Below, piece by piece: positions 22,699 through 59,794 of a DNA stretch of 60,937 bases. How positions within the stretch are numbered: position 1 is the stretch's first letter; each line of letters opens with the position of its first letter. The notes beneath the pieces were generated by a model. It made no database searches and was not told where the DNA came from. It saw nothing but the letters and a program-made list of their open reading frames with translations. The translations under genes were made by a program, and so were the position numbers. The stretch covers positions 1-60,937 of the forward strand of contig NZ_PGCL01000006.1 of the NCBI RefSeq assembly GCF_004297185.1, in the 5' to 3' direction. Origin of the DNA: Methanofollis fontis (GTDB taxonomy: Archaea > Halobacteriota > Methanomicrobia > Methanomicrobiales > Methanofollaceae).

Positions 22699-22772
22699 CG
22701 GGCCTGAAGGGATTTGAACCCCTGGCCTGCGGATTAAGAGTCCGCCGCTATGCCAAACTAAGCTACAGGCCC
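22699..22772 (-). tRNA. tRNA-Lys (CUU)
   Basis: The minus strand folds as a cloverleaf: acceptor GGGCCTG/CAGGCCC, anticodon stem GCGGA/TCCGC with loop CTCTTAA (anticodon CTT), T loop GTTCAAATC and discriminator G. CCA is not encoded. On the minus strand a TATA-like TTTATATC lies about 38 bp upstream (22808-22815). Confidence 0.97.
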
Positions 22773-52963: not shown

Positions 52964-53803
52964 TCATCCCCGTTCAATTCTGACACCCCGAGGCGCCCTG
53001 ATCATCCCTTCCACGAGCGCCTCCTCATGGAGGGCAAGAGAGAGTCCGGCGGCGTCGCCGAGGATGTGGACGGCGGGGGCCACCGTCACCTCGCCCCCTC
53101 CCTCCACATTCCCGTGGACCTGCGTCCGCCGACCGATCCCGATCGCCCCGCCCGCCCGGAGGCTCCCGAAGATGATCGTGTCCTCGCCGACCTCCACTGT
53201 CTGCGCCCTGATATTGCCGTGAAGGCGGCAATGATCGCCGATGTGCGTCGGTGCCGGGATCGAGAAGACCTTCATGTTCATTTCTGACCCCGGTGGGATG
53301 ATCAGTGGTGATTCGTCACTCATATCCTCTTCTTCGAAGATTTCATCGAGTGCACTGTCGATCTCATCGGGGTTCTCGATCTTCAGGAGTGTCATCACAT
53401 AGAGAAGCAGATAGACGATCACCGGCATCGGGTTTCGGATCGAGATCCAGCCCTTGGCCTCAAATCCCCGATCGATCGTGACGTTGTCGCCGATATCAAG
53501 ATCGCCGTGCACGATCAGGCGACCATGGATCTTTACACCCTCGCCAAGGAAGGCGTCCTCTCCGGCGATCACGTCTCCGTTGATCTCGCACCAGTTGTCG
53601 ATCCTGACATCGCCGTCGGCGACGACGCTCCCGTTGAGGGTGCATAATTCGCAGACGATGATATCCTTCCCTTTCAGCCCGTAATCGATCCTGCAGCGAT
53701 CCCCGATGATGATATTATTCCCGGTCTTCAGGGTATGTTCCTGCAGCTCGGTGCCGTCAGGGAGAGAACACTGATGGAGCCAGTCCTGAACCCCACTCTC
53801 CAT
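52964..53803 (-). CDS. Bactofilin-like / left-handed beta-helix polymer-forming protein
   Basis: The 279-residue protein has two beta-helical halves of short repeated strands (VVADGDVRIDNWCEINGDVI, GEDAFLGEGVKIHGRLIV; later IGDHCRLHGNIRAQTVEVG and IGRRTQVHGNVEGGGEVT). This is the pattern of bactofilins and polymer-forming cytoskeletal proteins. Between them lies a hydrophobic segment (MPVIVYLLLYVMTLLKI) and an acidic linker, which would tether it to the membrane. Filament formation is inferred from the family. Confidence 0.82.
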   Translation of the reverse strand: MESGVQDWLHQCSLPDGTELQEHTLKTGNNIIIGDRCRIDYGLKGKDIIVCELCTLNGSVVADGDVRIDNWCEINGDVIAGEDAFLGEGVKIHGRLIVHGDLDIGDNVTIDRGFEAKGWISIRNPMPVIVYLLLYVMTLLKIENPDEIDSALDEIFEEEDMSDESPLIIPPGSEMNMKVFSIPAPTHIGDHCRLHGNIRAQTVEVGEDTIIFGSLRAGGAIGIGRRTQVHGNVEGGGEVTVAPAVHILGDAAGLSLALHEEALVEGMIRAPRGVRIERG

Positions 53804-53891: not shown

Positions 53892-54491
53892 TTAAAAGGC
53901 CATTACGACCGGAGTCTCGACCTTGCTCTTGATGATCTCAACCCGGCGGACCGGGAAGATCGTCTTGACCATCTTGAAGGCTTCCTTGGCGCAGTCGCCC
54001 GAGACGACCGCCTTGGAAAACTCGTCGAATGACATCTCTGCCGCCTGTCCCCTGGCAACATTCGTGATGGTCTCGCGGATGGCGTGTGCCTGCGAGATGT
54101 TTGCCCTGTTGATCGTGAAGCAGGAGATGGTGAGGCGGACCTTCTTGTTGTCCTTGGTCGGCACCAGGATCATGGTGTCGATCCGGGAGGTCTTCCGCTT
54201 CACCAGGCCGCGCATATAGTCGCGGGTGATCTCATGCCCCACGAACTCGGTGTATGCGGCGTCGCCTGCCACATTGTTCACCTTGAAACGCATCTTGATG
54301 TGCTGTTTTGAATAGTCCTGCGAGATCTCACCGAGCGTGGTCTGCATCACGCGCCCCATCACCTTGGAGGGGTCGGCAGAGATCGTGTCCCCAATATGGG
54401 CCTTGCCGAAGGCTTCCGGACCATAGACCTTGTACCAGGACTTGGCCTTCCAGCCCTCGACTCTTTTTCCAACCTGTTTTCTCTTTGCCAT
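53892..54491 (-). CDS. rps3ae: Ribosomal protein eS1 (S3Ae)
   Basis: The 199-residue protein starts MAKRKQVGKRVEGWKAKSWY and has the S3Ae core (NNVAGDAAYTEFVGHEITRDYMRGLVKRKTSRID shortened to the family's central region). It sits on the platform of the small subunit. It is the last gene of the rps15-recJ-pcc1-rps3ae operon, 11 bp after pcc1. Confidence 0.96.
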   Translation of the reverse strand: MAKRKQVGKRVEGWKAKSWYKVYGPEAFGKAHIGDTISADPSKVMGRVMQTTLGEISQDYSKQHIKMRFKVNNVAGDAAYTEFVGHEITRDYMRGLVKRKTSRIDTMILVPTKDNKKVRLTISCFTINRANISQAHAIRETITNVARGQAAEMSFDEFSKAVVSGDCAKEAFKMVKTIFPVRRVEIIKSKVETPVVMAF

Positions 54492-54502
54492 GGATTCACC
54501 AG

Positions 54503-54766
54503 TTACTTTGATTTAATCACCGGGTTCTCTTCTCCAGTTTGTTCTGCCATATTCAGGCCGCATATCTCCTCTGCGATCGCCAGGTTCATCAGGTAGTCGT
54601 CCACCGATGCGGTCACTGAGCGGAGGGCGCCGGACTCGATCGTCGTGACGACCCTCCCGGCCTCTGCCCCTGTCGTCATTCCGGTGAGGTTGTCGGGTGC
54701 GAGTGCCGCCGCAATATGCCCGGCGTCGATGCTGGCGGTGCTGATCTCGCCGGTGATCCGGATCAT
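54503..54766 (-). CDS. pcc1: KEOPS complex subunit Pcc1
   Basis: The 87-residue alpha/beta protein fits Pcc1: an N-terminal ITGEISTASIDAGHIAAALAPDNL, a central strand pair with GRVVTTIESGALRSVTASVDDYL, and a C-terminal helix. Pcc1 dimerises and binds Kae1 in the complex that makes t6A on tRNA. It overlaps recJ by 4 bp, the usual archaeal neighbourhood. Confidence 0.88.
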   Translation of the reverse strand: MIRITGEISTASIDAGHIAAALAPDNLTGMTTGAEAGRVVTTIESGALRSVTASVDDYLMNLAIAEEICGLNMAEQTGEENPVIKSK

Positions 54767-55971
54767 GCGGACACCGCCTTTGAGAAACCCTCCCTGAACT
54801 CATCGATCCGATCGAGCGGGATGCGGGCTCCGGCCCTGGTGTGGTGGCCCCCTCCTGTCCCGCCGGTTCTGGCGGCGAGGGTGCGCATCAGTTCCTCAAG
54901 GTCGACCTCGACCCCCCGCGGACAGCGGGCTGAAACCTGCCAGCAGTCGCCGTTCTGGGCGATCACCGCCACGGCCCCGGTCTGCCTGATGTCGTAGGCG
55001 AGACAGTCGGCAACACCGCTTGCGGCGGAGGCGTCTTCCACGGTATAGATCTGGCCGTTCCGGCTGGCTGCGGTGAGGGCGGCGACCACCCGTCGCCTGA
55101 AGGCGGCCGCAATTCCGGTCGCCTCCTCCACCAGATCGGGGGCGCGCATGCAGACCGCTGCCGCACACCCGCCCCGCCCGCTCTGGCCGCAACCGTCGAT
55201 GACCGCCGCCATCGTGCGGGCGTCCCCGATCACCTCCCGTTCAAGGCGGTAGCGTTCACCGTAGATCCGTGAAAATACCGCGGGGTCCGCGTCCTCGCCC
55301 CCTTCCAGAAGGAGGAGGGAGAGGAGGAGATCTTTCTTGACCTCCTCCTCGCCGGTCGCCGTCTCCAGGATATCCGTGATCTTTTCGCTATTCCCGCTTA
55401 TGCCGGAGATATAGGGGTTGACCGCCGTCTCGAGCGCCTCCCGCAGGTTCTGACCGTTCAGAAGCAGTCCCCGTTCCGGGACGATGAAGCCGTTTGCTAT
55501 GCCCTCGTTGAGGATCTCACGGTTCATGCCGGTGAACGTCTGCCCGTCGCCGAAGACGCCCAGGATGGCGGCACCTGCGAGGTCGCGGTTGTCGCCCATC
55601 TCCTGCGCCACGATGTATGCCGTCCCCGACGCCGAGAGTTCCTGCTCACCGTCGATCCCGCATAACCGGGGGTTGACATGGAATGGGCCCTTGAATGCCG
55701 GGACATGGTGGTCGACGACCATCACGCTATCAGGGAGATCGGTGATTCCAGAGCCGAAATCGCACAGGAGGGTCGATTCTGGATGGATGATGTCCTTGCT
55801 CTCGATCCCCTGCCGGATCCGCAGCCTGAACCTGATGCCCGCCCTGAGCATCGCCTGACAGAGGATCGAGCCTGCGGCGATGCCGTCGGCATCGTGGTGG
55901 GCATAGACCTCGACGAAGTCGGTGGCGAGGATCTGTTTGGCGACCTGTGCGGCTGCGGCCTGAATGGACAT
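54763..55971 (-). CDS. recJ: RecJ-like single-strand exonuclease (GAN type, DHH family)
   Basis: The 402-residue DHH phosphoesterase has VYAHHDADGIAAGSILC, the DHH motif VVDHHVPAF, SASGTAYIVAQEM and a C-terminal DHHA1 part with GGTGGGHHTRAGA. Archaeal relatives bind GINS (GAN) and degrade single-stranded DNA or RNA at replication forks. It is 3 bp downstream of rps15 and coupled to pcc1. Confidence 0.9.
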   Translation of the reverse strand: MSIQAAAAQVAKQILATDFVEVYAHHDADGIAAGSILCQAMLRAGIRFRLRIRQGIESKDIIHPESTLLCDFGSGITDLPDSVMVVDHHVPAFKGPFHVNPRLCGIDGEQELSASGTAYIVAQEMGDNRDLAGAAILGVFGDGQTFTGMNREILNEGIANGFIVPERGLLLNGQNLREALETAVNPYISGISGNSEKITDILETATGEEEVKKDLLLSLLLLEGGEDADPAVFSRIYGERYRLEREVIGDARTMAAVIDGCGQSGRGGCAAAVCMRAPDLVEEATGIAAAFRRRVVAALTAASRNGQIYTVEDASAASGVADCLAYDIRQTGAVAVIAQNGDCWQVSARCPRGVEVDLEELMRTLAARTGGTGGGHHTRAGARIPLDRIDEFREGFSKAVSA

Positions 55972-55974
55972 GGC

Positions 55975-56433
55975 TTATCTGGAGAGGAGAATCTCAGCAG
56001 TCTCAGGCTTATAGGTCCAGCTCTTCTCGAGCCGTCCGTTCGAACGGTAGTACTTCACCAGGCGGCGCACCTTGGACTCGGTGAGCTGGAGCTGCCGCTT
56101 GTTGTGGATATCGTTTCTGTTCTCGGCGAGGTGCTTGCGCATCCCGAGCGCCTTGGCGATCAGGTTGCGGAGGTCCTCGGGGATATCCTGTTCGAGCTCG
56201 TTCTCTTTGAGGATCTCACCGATCTTCTTGCCGGTCACAAGCTTCGCATCGGGTACGCCGTACTTGTCGCGCAGGATAAATCCGATCTCGCTGCTGGATT
56301 TGCCTTTTTTGCGGAGATCGACAACGGTCTTGACGACTTCGTCCGCCGACATCCCGCACCATTCGGGTGATTCGGTGCGGTATGGGGCGACAGAGCCGGA
56401 CTTGCCTCTCCGCCGTGCATGCATTCGTGCCAT
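55975..56433 (-). CDS. rps15: Ribosomal protein uS15
   Basis: The 152-residue archaeal-type uS15 starts [19 protein letters not shown], has the eukaryote-like N-terminal domain ([20 protein letters not shown]) and the core [20 protein letters not shown] that binds 16S rRNA. AGAGGTAGAAC precedes the ATG. The mRNA is predicted to begin with the folded element at 56456-56543, so regulation by that element is possible. Confidence 0.96.
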
Positions 56434-56455
56434 GTTCTACCTCTAAATAGACAGC

Positions 56456-56543
56456 GTAAGTCCAGAAAAGAGCAGTATGAACTACTGACTTTTCTGTAAT
56501 CCCGAGCCACTCCGGGCAGTGCCGTTCGGCACGTCGGACTTAC
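56456..56543 (-). ncRNA. Candidate structured 5' leader RNA of the rps15 operon
   Basis: An 88-base segment is closed by a perfect 8-bp stem, GTAAGTCC (56456-56463) with GGACTTAC (56536-56543). Inside are three hairpins. P2 has AGAAAAG 56464-56470 pairing with CTTTTCT 56489-56495, topped by CAGTA/TACTG (56473-56477/56483-56487). P3 has CCCG 56501-56504 with CGGG 56513-56516. P4 has GTGCC 56519-56523 with GGCAC 56528-56532. The minus-strand TATA box predicts a start near 56546, three bases before the closing stem, and the element ends 22 bases before the rps15 ATG. It could be a ribosomal-protein-binding leader or a separate small RNA; plus-strand use cannot be excluded. No known family is assigned. 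Confidence 0.6.
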
Positions 56544-56549
56544 AGCAGC

Positions 56550-56577
56550 CAGCACCAGACAGTGCTGATTATATATT
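56550..56577 (-). promoter_or_regulatory. rps15 operon promoter with palindromic operator-like site
   Basis: AATATATAAT at 56568-56577 (minus strand), preceded by purine-rich GGG, is a strong TATA box. Directly downstream, at 56550-56567, lies the perfect inverted repeat CAGCAC-N6-GTGCTG. Its place between TATA and start site is typical for archaeal repressors. Confidence 0.65.
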
Positions 56578-56617
56578 CCCGGTCTGAGGTCTTAAGCCTG
56601 ACGGCAGAACAAAACCG

Positions 56618-56629
56618 AAATATATATCG
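56618..56629 (+). promoter_or_regulatory. TATA box of sensor kinase gene
   Basis: AAATATATATCG lies about 40 bp before ATG 56665, giving a predicted start near 56650. Confidence 0.6.
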
Positions 56630-56664
56630 TCTGAAATGAACGGATCACCCATAGGCACCGGTTG

Positions 56665-59600
56665 ATGACGTCTGAGCGCCCCCTCATCAGCGGATCGGAT
56701 CGACAGAAGGCGATTCTGCTCTCTGTCGCCGCAGCGGGAGCGCTGGCCATGACGGCATGGGCGGCGGCAACCGGGGTGACCGTGGTCATCGGGCATCTTC
56801 TGTATGTGCCGGTTATTCTCGCCGTCCTGTGGTACCGCTGGCGGGGCATGTATGTGGTGATCGCCCTTGCGGTGATCTATTCCCTGATCATCTTGGTGTT
56901 TTACGGATTTTCGACCACCTTTGTTGAGGGGATTCTGCGTATGCTGGTGACGGTCGCCATCTCGCTCATCCTTGCGGTGCTCTCCGAGCGGGTGACGGCG
57001 CTGGCACGCGACTATCCCGGCATCTTCCAGCACGGGGGGGTGGGTTTTCTCATCGTCGATAAGGAGCGGATGACGGTGACCGATATCAACCGCACCGCTG
57101 CGGCGATGATCGGTTTTCATCCGGAGGATGTTATCGGTCGCATATTCTCCTCCCTGTTTGCAGATGCACAAGCCGGGCGAGAGGTTTCGGAGATGCTGAG
57201 GCAGGGAGATGATCTCCAGGAGATCGAAGGGAAGCTGACAAAGCGAGACGGCAGCATTTTCTGTGTTCGGATTGTGCCGGGTCTGCTCCCCGAGGGACGA
57301 ATCACCTGCACCCTCATTGATATCAGCCGCCAGAAGGATGACGAACGCACGATGCGCGCCCTTGCAGACTTCACTGAACAGAACCCGGATCCCGTGCTCA
57401 GGATCGAACCCGGCGGCACGCTTCTCTCTGCGAACGATCCGGCCTTTTCTCTGAATGTCCTGTGGGATGACCGCGATGGGATGCACCTCTCTCCGACAGT
57501 CGTTGATGCCGCCAGGAAAGTGCTGAAGAGCGGTCGGCGGGCCGAGATCGAGATCTCGGGCGAGGGTCGGACCCATGTGCTCTCGATCGTCCCGGTGCCC
57601 GGCGAGTGCTATGCCAATGTCTATGGTCGGGAGGTCACGCGGCAGAAGGCGGCGGAAGAGGAGCTTCGCCGGAACGAGCGGCGGCTTGAGGTGCTCCAGA
57701 CACTCAATACGATGTATGACGCTCCGGTCGGTGACATCACCGACTATGCCCTGAAGGCGGGTGTTGCCCTGACCGGGAGTGAGCAGGGGTATTTCGCTGT
57801 GCTCGACGAGAGCAAAGAGGTGATCACGATGCGGTCGTGGACCGACGGGGCGGCAGACGCCCGCAACGGTGTCCGGATACAGCAGAACCCCTCCCCGGTG
57901 GATGAGAACATCATGTACCGGGAGGTGATCAGACTCAGGAGGCCCGTTCTTGTCAATAATTTCCAGGAGCAGATGGATCTCAAGAATGCCCTTCCTCCCG
58001 GTCATCCGGCGGTCCACCGTTGCATGATAGTTCCTGTCATGGAGGGGCAGCGGATTGTGGCGGTCGCCGGGGTGATCAACAAGGGGGATGCATATGATGG
58101 GAGCGATGTCAGGCAGCTCTCGCTGCTGATGAGTGGACTGTGGGGGATCATCCGCGGAAAACAGTATTCAGACGACCTGAAACGTTCGGAAAATCTATAT
58201 CGCGCCATTTTTTCGGCGACAGGGGCGGCGACGATGATCCTGGACGGCGAGGGGCGGATCACGCGTGCAAACTCACAGTTTCTGCCCCTCTTCGGCTACG
58301 ATCCCGGTGACCTGATCGGTAAGAATGCATGGGATACGATCTTCAAGGGGCCGATCGCCGAAACGGCATGGCGATATCACCAGAAACGCCGTCAGGATCC
58401 CCGGGGCCCCCCGTCATTCTATGAGGGTCGGGTGCTCGATGGGCAGGGGATGGAACGGTATGCGCTGGTAGCAGTGGCGATGATCGTGGGCACCGATACA
58501 AGCGTCCTCTCTCTGGCAGATATCTCGTCGCTCAAGCAGACGGAGCGGGAGCTGAAAAAGCGGAACCGGGAACTCTCTATCCTCTCGGAGGTGGCGGAGA
58601 TCACCTCGCCGATACGCCCTCTTCCTGAGACGCTCAACGCCGTTCTGGATGGGGTGCTCGATCTGACGGGATTTGAGTGCGGGGCGGTCTATCTGGTGAA
58701 GGGTGTGGGGGGGCCGGTGGTCAGGGTTGCCGAACACCAGCCCGCCGGCATGAGGCTTCCGCCCACGGATGCTGAGGCCTATCGGCCTGTGGATACACCA
58801 TTGTATTCCGATGATCCTCCGGACGGGGTTCCGGCTTATGTCGCCGATAATTTCCTCTCATATGCATCTATCCCCCTCACTGCCGGATCCGAATGGCTTG
58901 GTGTGCTGGCCATCGCGTCCAGAGATGAGTATGCGTTTCCACCGGCCGAACGGCGGATGCTGGAGGCGATCGGGCAGACGGTGGGGCTTGCCGTCCAGCG
59001 GGCGACCTTGAGGGAGGGGCTGGAGCGGGCGAATGAGGAGGCGAACCTCTATCTCGACATCATCACCCACGACATCAACAATGCCAATGGCATTGCGATG
59101 GGCTACTGCAGCCTGCTCGTCAGAACCCTCTCTGGAAAGGAGAATACGATCGTGCGCAAGGTGCTCGGCGGCATCAGGCAGAGCATGGAGATCATCTCGA
59201 ATGTCTCCACCTACCGCAACATGAGCACGCGGACCTCGAGCATCGAGCCCGTGCCCCTCGACCCGGTGATCCGGGCGCAGCTGACTCAGTTTTCAGAGGT
59301 GGACATCCGCTATGGCGGCACCGACGAGGTGGTGCTGGCGGATGACCTCCTCTCCGAGGTGTTCGTCAACCTGATCGGGAATGCCGTGAAGTTTGGCGGG
59401 CCTGATGTGACCGTCTGGATCGAGGTTGCACGGGAGGGTGATCTGGTGATCGTCCGTCTGACCGACAATGGACCGGGTATACCGGACGACCAGAAATCCG
59501 AAATTTTCAACAGGTTTGTCAGAAAATCCACGAGAGCGAGCGGGAAGGGGCTCGGGCTCTGGATCACGCGTATGCTCCTTGAGCGTTATGGGGGGGCCAT

Positions 59601-59694
59601 CGTTGCCGATGACCGGGTGGCGGGCAGTCCTGAGGGGGGTGCGGCGATGGTGCTCACGTTCAGGCGGGTGCCGGAGATGAAAGAACCTTTATAA
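56665..59694 (+). CDS. Membrane sensor histidine kinase with PAS and GAF domains
   Basis: The 1,009-residue protein has about four N-terminal membrane helices, a PAS domain (GGVGFLIVDKERMTVTDINRTAAAMIGF), a second PAS-like region, a GAF domain (ALKAGVALTGSEQGYFAVLDE), a third PAS (IFSATGAATMILDGEGRITRAN) and a second GAF domain. A kinase core follows: phospho-acceptor DIITHDINNANGIAMGYC, N box NLIGNAVKFGG, G1 DNGPGIPDD and G2 GKGLGLWI. Signals are unknown. No response regulator lies nearby, so it is an orphan kinase in this window. The ATG follows a TTG codon at 56662 that could also be used. The tRNA-Gly promoter overlaps its stop codon region. Confidence 0.92.
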   Translation: MTSERPLISGSDRQKAILLSVAAAGALAMTAWAAATGVTVVIGHLLYVPVILAVLWYRWRGMYVVIALAVIYSLIILVFYGFSTTFVEGILRMLVTVAISLILAVLSERVTALARDYPGIFQHGGVGFLIVDKERMTVTDINRTAAAMIGFHPEDVIGRIFSSLFADAQAGREVSEMLRQGDDLQEIEGKLTKRDGSIFCVRIVPGLLPEGRITCTLIDISRQKDDERTMRALADFTEQNPDPVLRIEPGGTLLSANDPAFSLNVLWDDRDGMHLSPTVVDAARKVLKSGRRAEIEISGEGRTHVLSIVPVPGECYANVYGREVTRQKAAEEELRRNERRLEVLQTLNTMYDAPVGDITDYALKAGVALTGSEQGYFAVLDESKEVITMRSWTDGAADARNGVRIQQNPSPVDENIMYREVIRLRRPVLVNNFQEQMDLKNALPPGHPAVHRCMIVPVMEGQRIVAVAGVINKGDAYDGSDVRQLSLLMSGLWGIIRGKQYSDDLKRSENLYRAIFSATGAATMILDGEGRITRANSQFLPLFGYDPGDLIGKNAWDTIFKGPIAETAWRYHQKRRQDPRGPPSFYEGRVLDGQGMERYALVAVAMIVGTDTSVLSLADISSLKQTERELKKRNRELSILSEVAEITSPIRPLPETLNAVLDGVLDLTGFECGAVYLVKGVGGPVVRVAEHQPAGMRLPPTDAEAYRPVDTPLYSDDPPDGVPAYVADNFLSYASIPLTAGSEWLGVLAIASRDEYAFPPAERRMLEAIGQTVGLAVQRATLREGLERANEEANLYLDIITHDINNANGIAMGYCSLLVRTLSGKENTIVRKVLGGIRQSMEIISNVSTYRNMSTRTSSIEPVPLDPVIRAQLTQFSEVDIRYGGTDEVVLADDLLSEVFVNLIGNAVKFGGPDVTVWIEVAREGDLVIVRLTDNGPGIPDDQKSEIFNRFVRKSTRASGKGLGLWITRMLLERYGGAIVADDRVAGSPEGGAAMVLTFRRVPEMKEPL

Positions 59695-59723: not shown

Positions 59724-59794
59724 GCGATAGTAGTCTAGTGGTAGGACAGGGGCTTCCCAAGCCTCTAACTCGGGTTCGAATCCCGGCTATCGCA
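59724..59794 (+). tRNA. tRNA-Gly (CCC)
   Basis: Cloverleaf with acceptor GCGATAG/CTATCGC, anticodon loop TTCCCAA (anticodon CCC), T loop GTTCGAATC and discriminator A; CCA is not encoded. A TATA box TTTATAAT at 59687-59694 overlaps the stop of the kinase gene. Confidence 0.97.

Follow-up and report, generated by a model that had tools for sequence, protein, structure and literature searches.

A conserved second fold in the uS15 operon leader of Methanomicrobiales and a proposed S15-operated switch

The leader of the uS15 operon of Methanofollis fontis carries an 8-nucleotide strand, S, that can pair with either of two strands located downstream of it. Pairing of S with P gives the fold of Rfam family RF03137 (state A), and pairing of the same S with Q gives the fold that had been noticed in a preliminary description of this DNA (state B); the two pairings exclude each other. 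We propose that the leader is a two-state RNA switch operated by S15, a reading to which we assign a probability of roughly 0.65. The exclusive pairings, their conservation, their predicted stabilities, their order of formation and a corresponding design in Halobacteria were computed, and S15 would be the obvious candidate for holding state A. The leader itself is already catalogued. The part that appears to be new is the second, competing conserved state: the closing stem of the preliminary description is a real, conserved alternative that is apparently undescribed.

The leader and its operon

The leader and rps15 lie on the minus strand of contig NZ_PGCL01000006.1, and the window, that is, the whole stretch of DNA analysed, comprises 60,937 nucleotides. 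The features discussed below are collected in Table 1.

Table 1. Features of the uS15 operon and its leader (positions in the window)
Feature	Positions	Strand	Basis
TATA-like box CTTAAG, predicted rps15 operon promoter	56591-56596	-	constant distance to H1, 125 orthologues aligned
H1, 5'-terminal hairpin AGCAC...GUGCU; predicted start near 56566	56551-56566	-	part of RF03137; promoter spacing
Outer strand CUGGC, partner of GUCAG in extended state A	56548-56552	-	RNAalifold
S, shared strand GUAAGUCC; pairs with P in RF03137, with Q in MFE fold	56536-56543	-	
H2, hairpin GUGCC-GAAC-GGCAC, common to both states	56519-56532	-	
H3, hairpin GCC...GGC of state A	56506-56517	-	
P, strand GGGAUUAC; partner of S in state A; 16S h22-like	56496-56503	-	RF03137; own 16S
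H4, hairpin AGAAAAG...CUUUUCU with pyrimidine/U-tract; directly between P and Q; not covered by the Rfam model	56464-56495	-	
GUCAG; in state B the 5' arm of H4, in extended state A paired with CUGGC	56485-56489	-	
Q, strand GGACUUAC; partner of S in state B (the closing stem first described)	56456-56463	-	
Shine-Dalgarno GAGGU of rps15	56439-56443	-	sequence
rps15 (uS15), first gene of the operon	55975-56433	-	Pfam PF08069, PF00312
recJ-like DHH/DHHA1 gene	54763-55971	-	Pfam PF02272
Small ORF, pcc1-like in the preliminary description	54503-54766	-	ORF list; no Pfam hit
rps3ae (eS1)	53892-54491	-	Pfam PF01015

The Rfam scan found a match to a described family, an outcome that the preliminary description had counted against its own proposal. 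Positions 56566-56496 match RF03137, the S15-Methanomicrobia leader, with 68.3 bits (gathering cut-off 42.2) over model positions 1-74 of 74. Eckert and Weinberg published this family in 2020 as the predicted S15 leader of rpsO-recJ-rps3ae, and the leader is said there to imitate a multistem junction of 16S rRNA (PMC7247131). The present element immediately precedes rpsO, and recJ and rps3ae follow according to the ORFs and Pfam, which is the arrangement in Table 1 of PMC7247131. Pfam thus agrees with the gene order rps15, recJ-like gene and rps3ae that was first read from this DNA, and the Pfam search gave no hit for the small ORF between the last two. Directly downstream of rps3ae, on the same strand, is a gene for a bactofilin/LbH-like protein (52964-53803). 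A PAS/GAF sensor histidine kinase gene (56662-59694, plus strand) is divergently transcribed, and a ATATATAT stretch near 56618-56628 is a possible TATA box for it. The window's only other Rfam matches are two tRNA genes (22699-22772, minus strand; 59724-59794, plus strand).

RF03137 was found in 183 of 199 genomes of Methanomicrobiales and in none of the 234 genomes of the phylum outside that order. In representatives of other families of the phylum (L138-L152), the sequences upstream of rps15 gave no S15-leader Rfam match, nor do they show obvious 16S-like junction letters, save for an isolated 6-letter match in L147.

The genome's own 16S rRNA has CUAGGGAUC and CUCCGACAGUG as its two S15-junction strands; the leader has CUCGGGAUUAC and AGUCCGACGUG (compared by eye). 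The likeness is in line with the imitation proposed in PMC7247131. In state B this S15-like site is broken. The preliminary description had offered an uS15-responsive leader, an eS1-responsive leader and an independent small RNA as candidates. A leader of the uS15 type is borne out by the family assignment, and nothing points to the other two. Although rps3ae is in the same operon, as an eS1 (S3ae)-responsive leader would have it, the RF03137 match, the likeness to the S15 site of 16S rRNA and the constant place directly upstream of rps15 make both of these candidates very improbable.

The 5' end of the transcript is predicted from promoter spacing. In 125 aligned orthologues a TATA-like box, YTTAWKA, occupies -30 to -24 relative to the GCAC of H1, and its spacing has a standard deviation of 0.74 nt relative to H1 against 3.75 nt relative to the closing stem at S. 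Because the box keeps its distance to H1 more steadily than to S, the start is predicted near 56566, with H1 as the 5' end. The start had been placed just outside the closing stem, at what was taken for the very 5' end of the transcript; the predicted end is 22 nt further upstream and adds the hairpin H1. The sequence ATATATAA, probably the cue for the earlier placement, falls at the AT-rich promoter position of about -11 to -4.

Two exclusive folds

State B is reproduced on the minus strand. The perfect 8-bp closing stem (56536-56543 with 56456-56463) around three hairpins forms as described, and the fold of 56543-56456 has a predicted energy of -36.9 kcal/mol (z = -5.09; none of 200 shuffles reached it). 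The enclosed hairpins have 5 bp, 5 bp and 13 bp, the last in two parts; the 12 bp first reported for the two-part hairpin hold for the plus strand. The plus-strand reading was rejected, as its fold is weaker (-33.6 kcal/mol, z = -4.1) and no gene lies on that strand. The start codon of rps15 (ATG, 56433-56431) does follow just past the stem, 22 nt downstream. In state B the H3 region (56501-56516) also re-pairs as CCCGG/UCGGG, taking the GGG of P, and this is a second way in which state B hides the S15-like strand.

State A turns out to be larger than its Rfam model. RNAalifold, run on a MAFFT alignment, gives the S/P helix together with a helix between CUGRC, just after H1, and GUCAG. The inner four pairs of this outer helix are formed in 94.7% of cells, and all five are possible in 113 of 128 leaders. 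With it, the plan of RF03137 is the plan of RF03143, the S15-Halobacteria leader, which has an outer GCAC/GUGC helix in the same place. The CUGRC/GUCAG helix and H4 are mutually exclusive. Since P and Q flank H4 directly, the exchange of P for Q on S has a simple branch-migration geometry.

Conservation and covariation

H4 and a Q-like strand come after P in nearly all of the 132 leaders of the order. In the MAFFT alignment, which was made without structure, 95.5% of S-Q cells are standard pairs. A Q that complements S at 8 of 8 positions within 60 nt after P is present in 71 of 132 leaders and in 2.0% of dinucleotide shuffles.

Covariation was assessed per pair with a tree-based null, a simplified version of the R-scape idea. 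It is significant and modest, since the S and P strands barely vary; it rests on few changes, and some of the p values of about 0.01 would lose significance if corrected for how many pairs were tested. Position 5 of S is mismatched or unpaired with P in every sequence; with Q it forms G-C in 61, G-U in 10 and A-U in 8 of 80 leaders (p = 0.0135). For position 2, covariation is seen with P (p = 0.009) and is marginal with Q (p = 0.067). H2 shows compensatory changes at 4 of its 5 pairs, with p = 0.0005 and 0.0015 for two of them.

These data bear on whether the leader is simply static, with state A, as in RF03137, doing all the work, the S-Q pairing a by-product of Q resembling P, and the conservation downstream serving something else. 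RNAalifold picks state A on the same alignment, and S and P are nearly invariant, as imitation of rRNA would require. However, the position of S that is mismatched in state A everywhere covaries with Q, state B is far more stable than state A, and Halobacteria keep the S-Q pairing with other letters, which include a GGGAAC left unpaired in the Rfam model (see below). We consider a static leader unlikely, though it deserves nearly as much weight as the attenuator discussed in the next section.

A point against the proposal is that Q is degenerate in L042, L058-L061 and L123, which are divergent leaders. Those of genus g30 (L058-L061) score 37-44 bits with RF03137, and their H1 is replaced too. 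The leaders with a degenerate Q are possibly a subtype that lost or remade the switch.

Stability, order of folding and output

When each state is forced, B lies below A in 128 of 132 leaders, by a median of -7.3 kcal/mol. The free MFE fold holds B in 100 of 132 leaders and A in 0. The order is reversed when the RNA is shortened: in RNA ending just before Q, the key pairs of A exceed a probability of 0.5 in 99 of 132 leaders (0.94 at this locus), whereas in RNA ending 10 nt past Q, A exceeds 0.5 in 0 and B in 127 of 132. The probabilities before and after Q indicate that A forms first and that B replaces it unless A is held.

A mechanism may be proposed on this basis. During transcription of the leader, S would pair with P, and the resulting three-way junction would mimic the place on 16S rRNA to which S15 binds. 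If free S15 is present, it would bind and hold state A. If S15 is absent when Q is transcribed, S would exchange P for Q, the imitation of rRNA would be lost and the more stable state B would form. Excess S15 would thereby trap A and cause repression, A being the OFF and B the ON state. Control would most likely be exerted at translation initiation, as the start codon at this locus follows Q by 22 nt. Among 128 leaders, the Shine-Dalgarno sequence is predicted to be more open in B than in A in 46 and less open in 8, with small differences. Together with the openness of the AUG region in Halobacteria (below), these small effects in the folding model fit B as ON and A as OFF.

The spacer between Q and the start of rps15 is often 66-217 nt in families f2 and f6 and 17-34 nt in most others. 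Such long spacers weaken the case for a simple start-site mechanism, and a terminator-type or a stability effect is possible. Within these two families, L034, L116, L120, L031, L032 and L127 have extra sequence between Q and the start codon, with stable hairpins predicted in it.

Extending a remark on poly-U by Eckert and Weinberg (PMC7247131), H4 with its CUCUUUUCU tract can be regarded as terminator-like, in which case binding of S15 would decide between stopping and reading on. The hairpin and U-tract are kept in nearly all leaders, those with long spacers included, and at this locus the tract is open in extended state A (0.56) and closed in B (0.003). Across leaders, though, state A does not regularly expose the tract more than B does (medians 0.33 and 0.26), and the relation is reversed with long spacers; exposure of the U-tract was for this inconsistency rejected as a general output. 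No comparable conserved U-tract was seen in the Halobacteria leaders listed, and their Q stands at a constant distance from the start codon. We consider an attenuator unlikely, at about one chance in five, and it is the strongest of the alternatives considered here.

A probable counterpart in Halobacteria

Of 242 sampled genomes of the class Halobacteria, 239 have RF03143, and the standard laboratory archaeon Haloferax volcanii is among those with this leader. The Rfam model leaves the conserved GGGAAC at the 5' end of RF03143 unpaired. We found that a strand GGAAC-N-GCAC-GRCCGCA of these leaders pairs with a downstream UGCGGUC-N-GUGC-N-GUUCC, with at least 10 pairs in 58 of 62 leaders. The duplex of the 5' strand and Q has -25.7 kcal/mol, against -12.7 kcal/mol in shuffles. 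Three tree-null tests of nucleotides 5 and 6, which are unpaired in state A, gave p values of 0.0045-0.014. The end of the Q block stays 9-17 nt ahead of the start codon, although the spacing of P and Q ranges over 14-128 nt. A TATA-like box about 26 nt upstream predicts a start at or beside GGGAAC.

States A and B have about equal predicted energy in these leaders, with a median difference of -0.25 kcal/mol over the 62. Until the Q block has been transcribed, A exceeds 0.5 in all 62 leaders; with the block present it does so in 8 of 62. The AUG region is more open in B in 17 of 62 and less open in 1. By these predictions the leaders of Halobacteria appear to be built like that of Methanomicrobiales with other letters. 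The two archaeal S15 leader families are then probably halves of one two-state switch in two classes, in which S15 would capture the 5' strand in a 16S-like junction and the strand would otherwise swap to a downstream partner close by the start codon.

State B might instead be a stem that protects the 5' end and stabilises the mRNA independently of S15. With it the 5' region forms a closed, stable domain, and in Halobacteria GGGAAC, predicted to be the first nucleotides of the transcript, takes part in it. Such protection, which we regard as improbable, leaves unexplained why B destroys exactly the S15-like site and why the two states are nearly equal in energy in Halobacteria.

Relation to known S15 leaders

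This locus shares with RF03137 the hairpin H1, the S/P three-way junction with H2 and H3, and the place before rpsO-recJ-rps3ae. The model of that family stops at P and is without H4, Q, the outer helix CUGGC/GUCAG and the stem in which S and Q compete with it. In the main text of PMC7247131 the words 'switch', 'alternative' and 'mutually exclusive' do not occur, nor is a competing strand mentioned. RF03143 has the same rRNA-like junction, belongs to the same clan (CL00121) and, from the present analysis, has the same competing downstream strand; its letters are different, and its 5' GGGAAC pairs in state B with GUUCC before the start codon.

The rpsO leaders of E. coli and mycobacteria take two conformations, of which S15 binds one only, and they are pseudoknot-based (PMC8470358). 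The Escherichia coli leader has two exclusive conformations, as are predicted for the present one, and repression there is translational (PMC8470358). It differs in that a pseudoknot alternates with two hairpins and the ribosome is entrapped, whereas here no pseudoknot is needed and a junction of rRNA is imitated. A pseudoknot operator overlapping the start site was not found: both states are nested and end upstream of the Shine-Dalgarno sequence. With nested folds and no pseudoknot, the leader is an analogue rather than a member of the E. coli type of bistable leader, and a member of RF03137. The S15 leaders of Thermus and Geobacillus are three-way junction operators that, like state A, resemble 16S rRNA (PMC8470358). 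Their sequences are unrelated to the archaeal one. We know of no S-P-Q partner exchange described for them. To our knowledge, the route from protein binding to gene control in archaeal leaders is largely untested.

The published leader models hold the binding site only, and the competing strand would be the missing other half. It would also explain the conserved nucleotides that are unpaired in RF03143. If the proposal is true, archaea would possess in these leaders an RNA switch that senses a protein and works through a defined competing helix.
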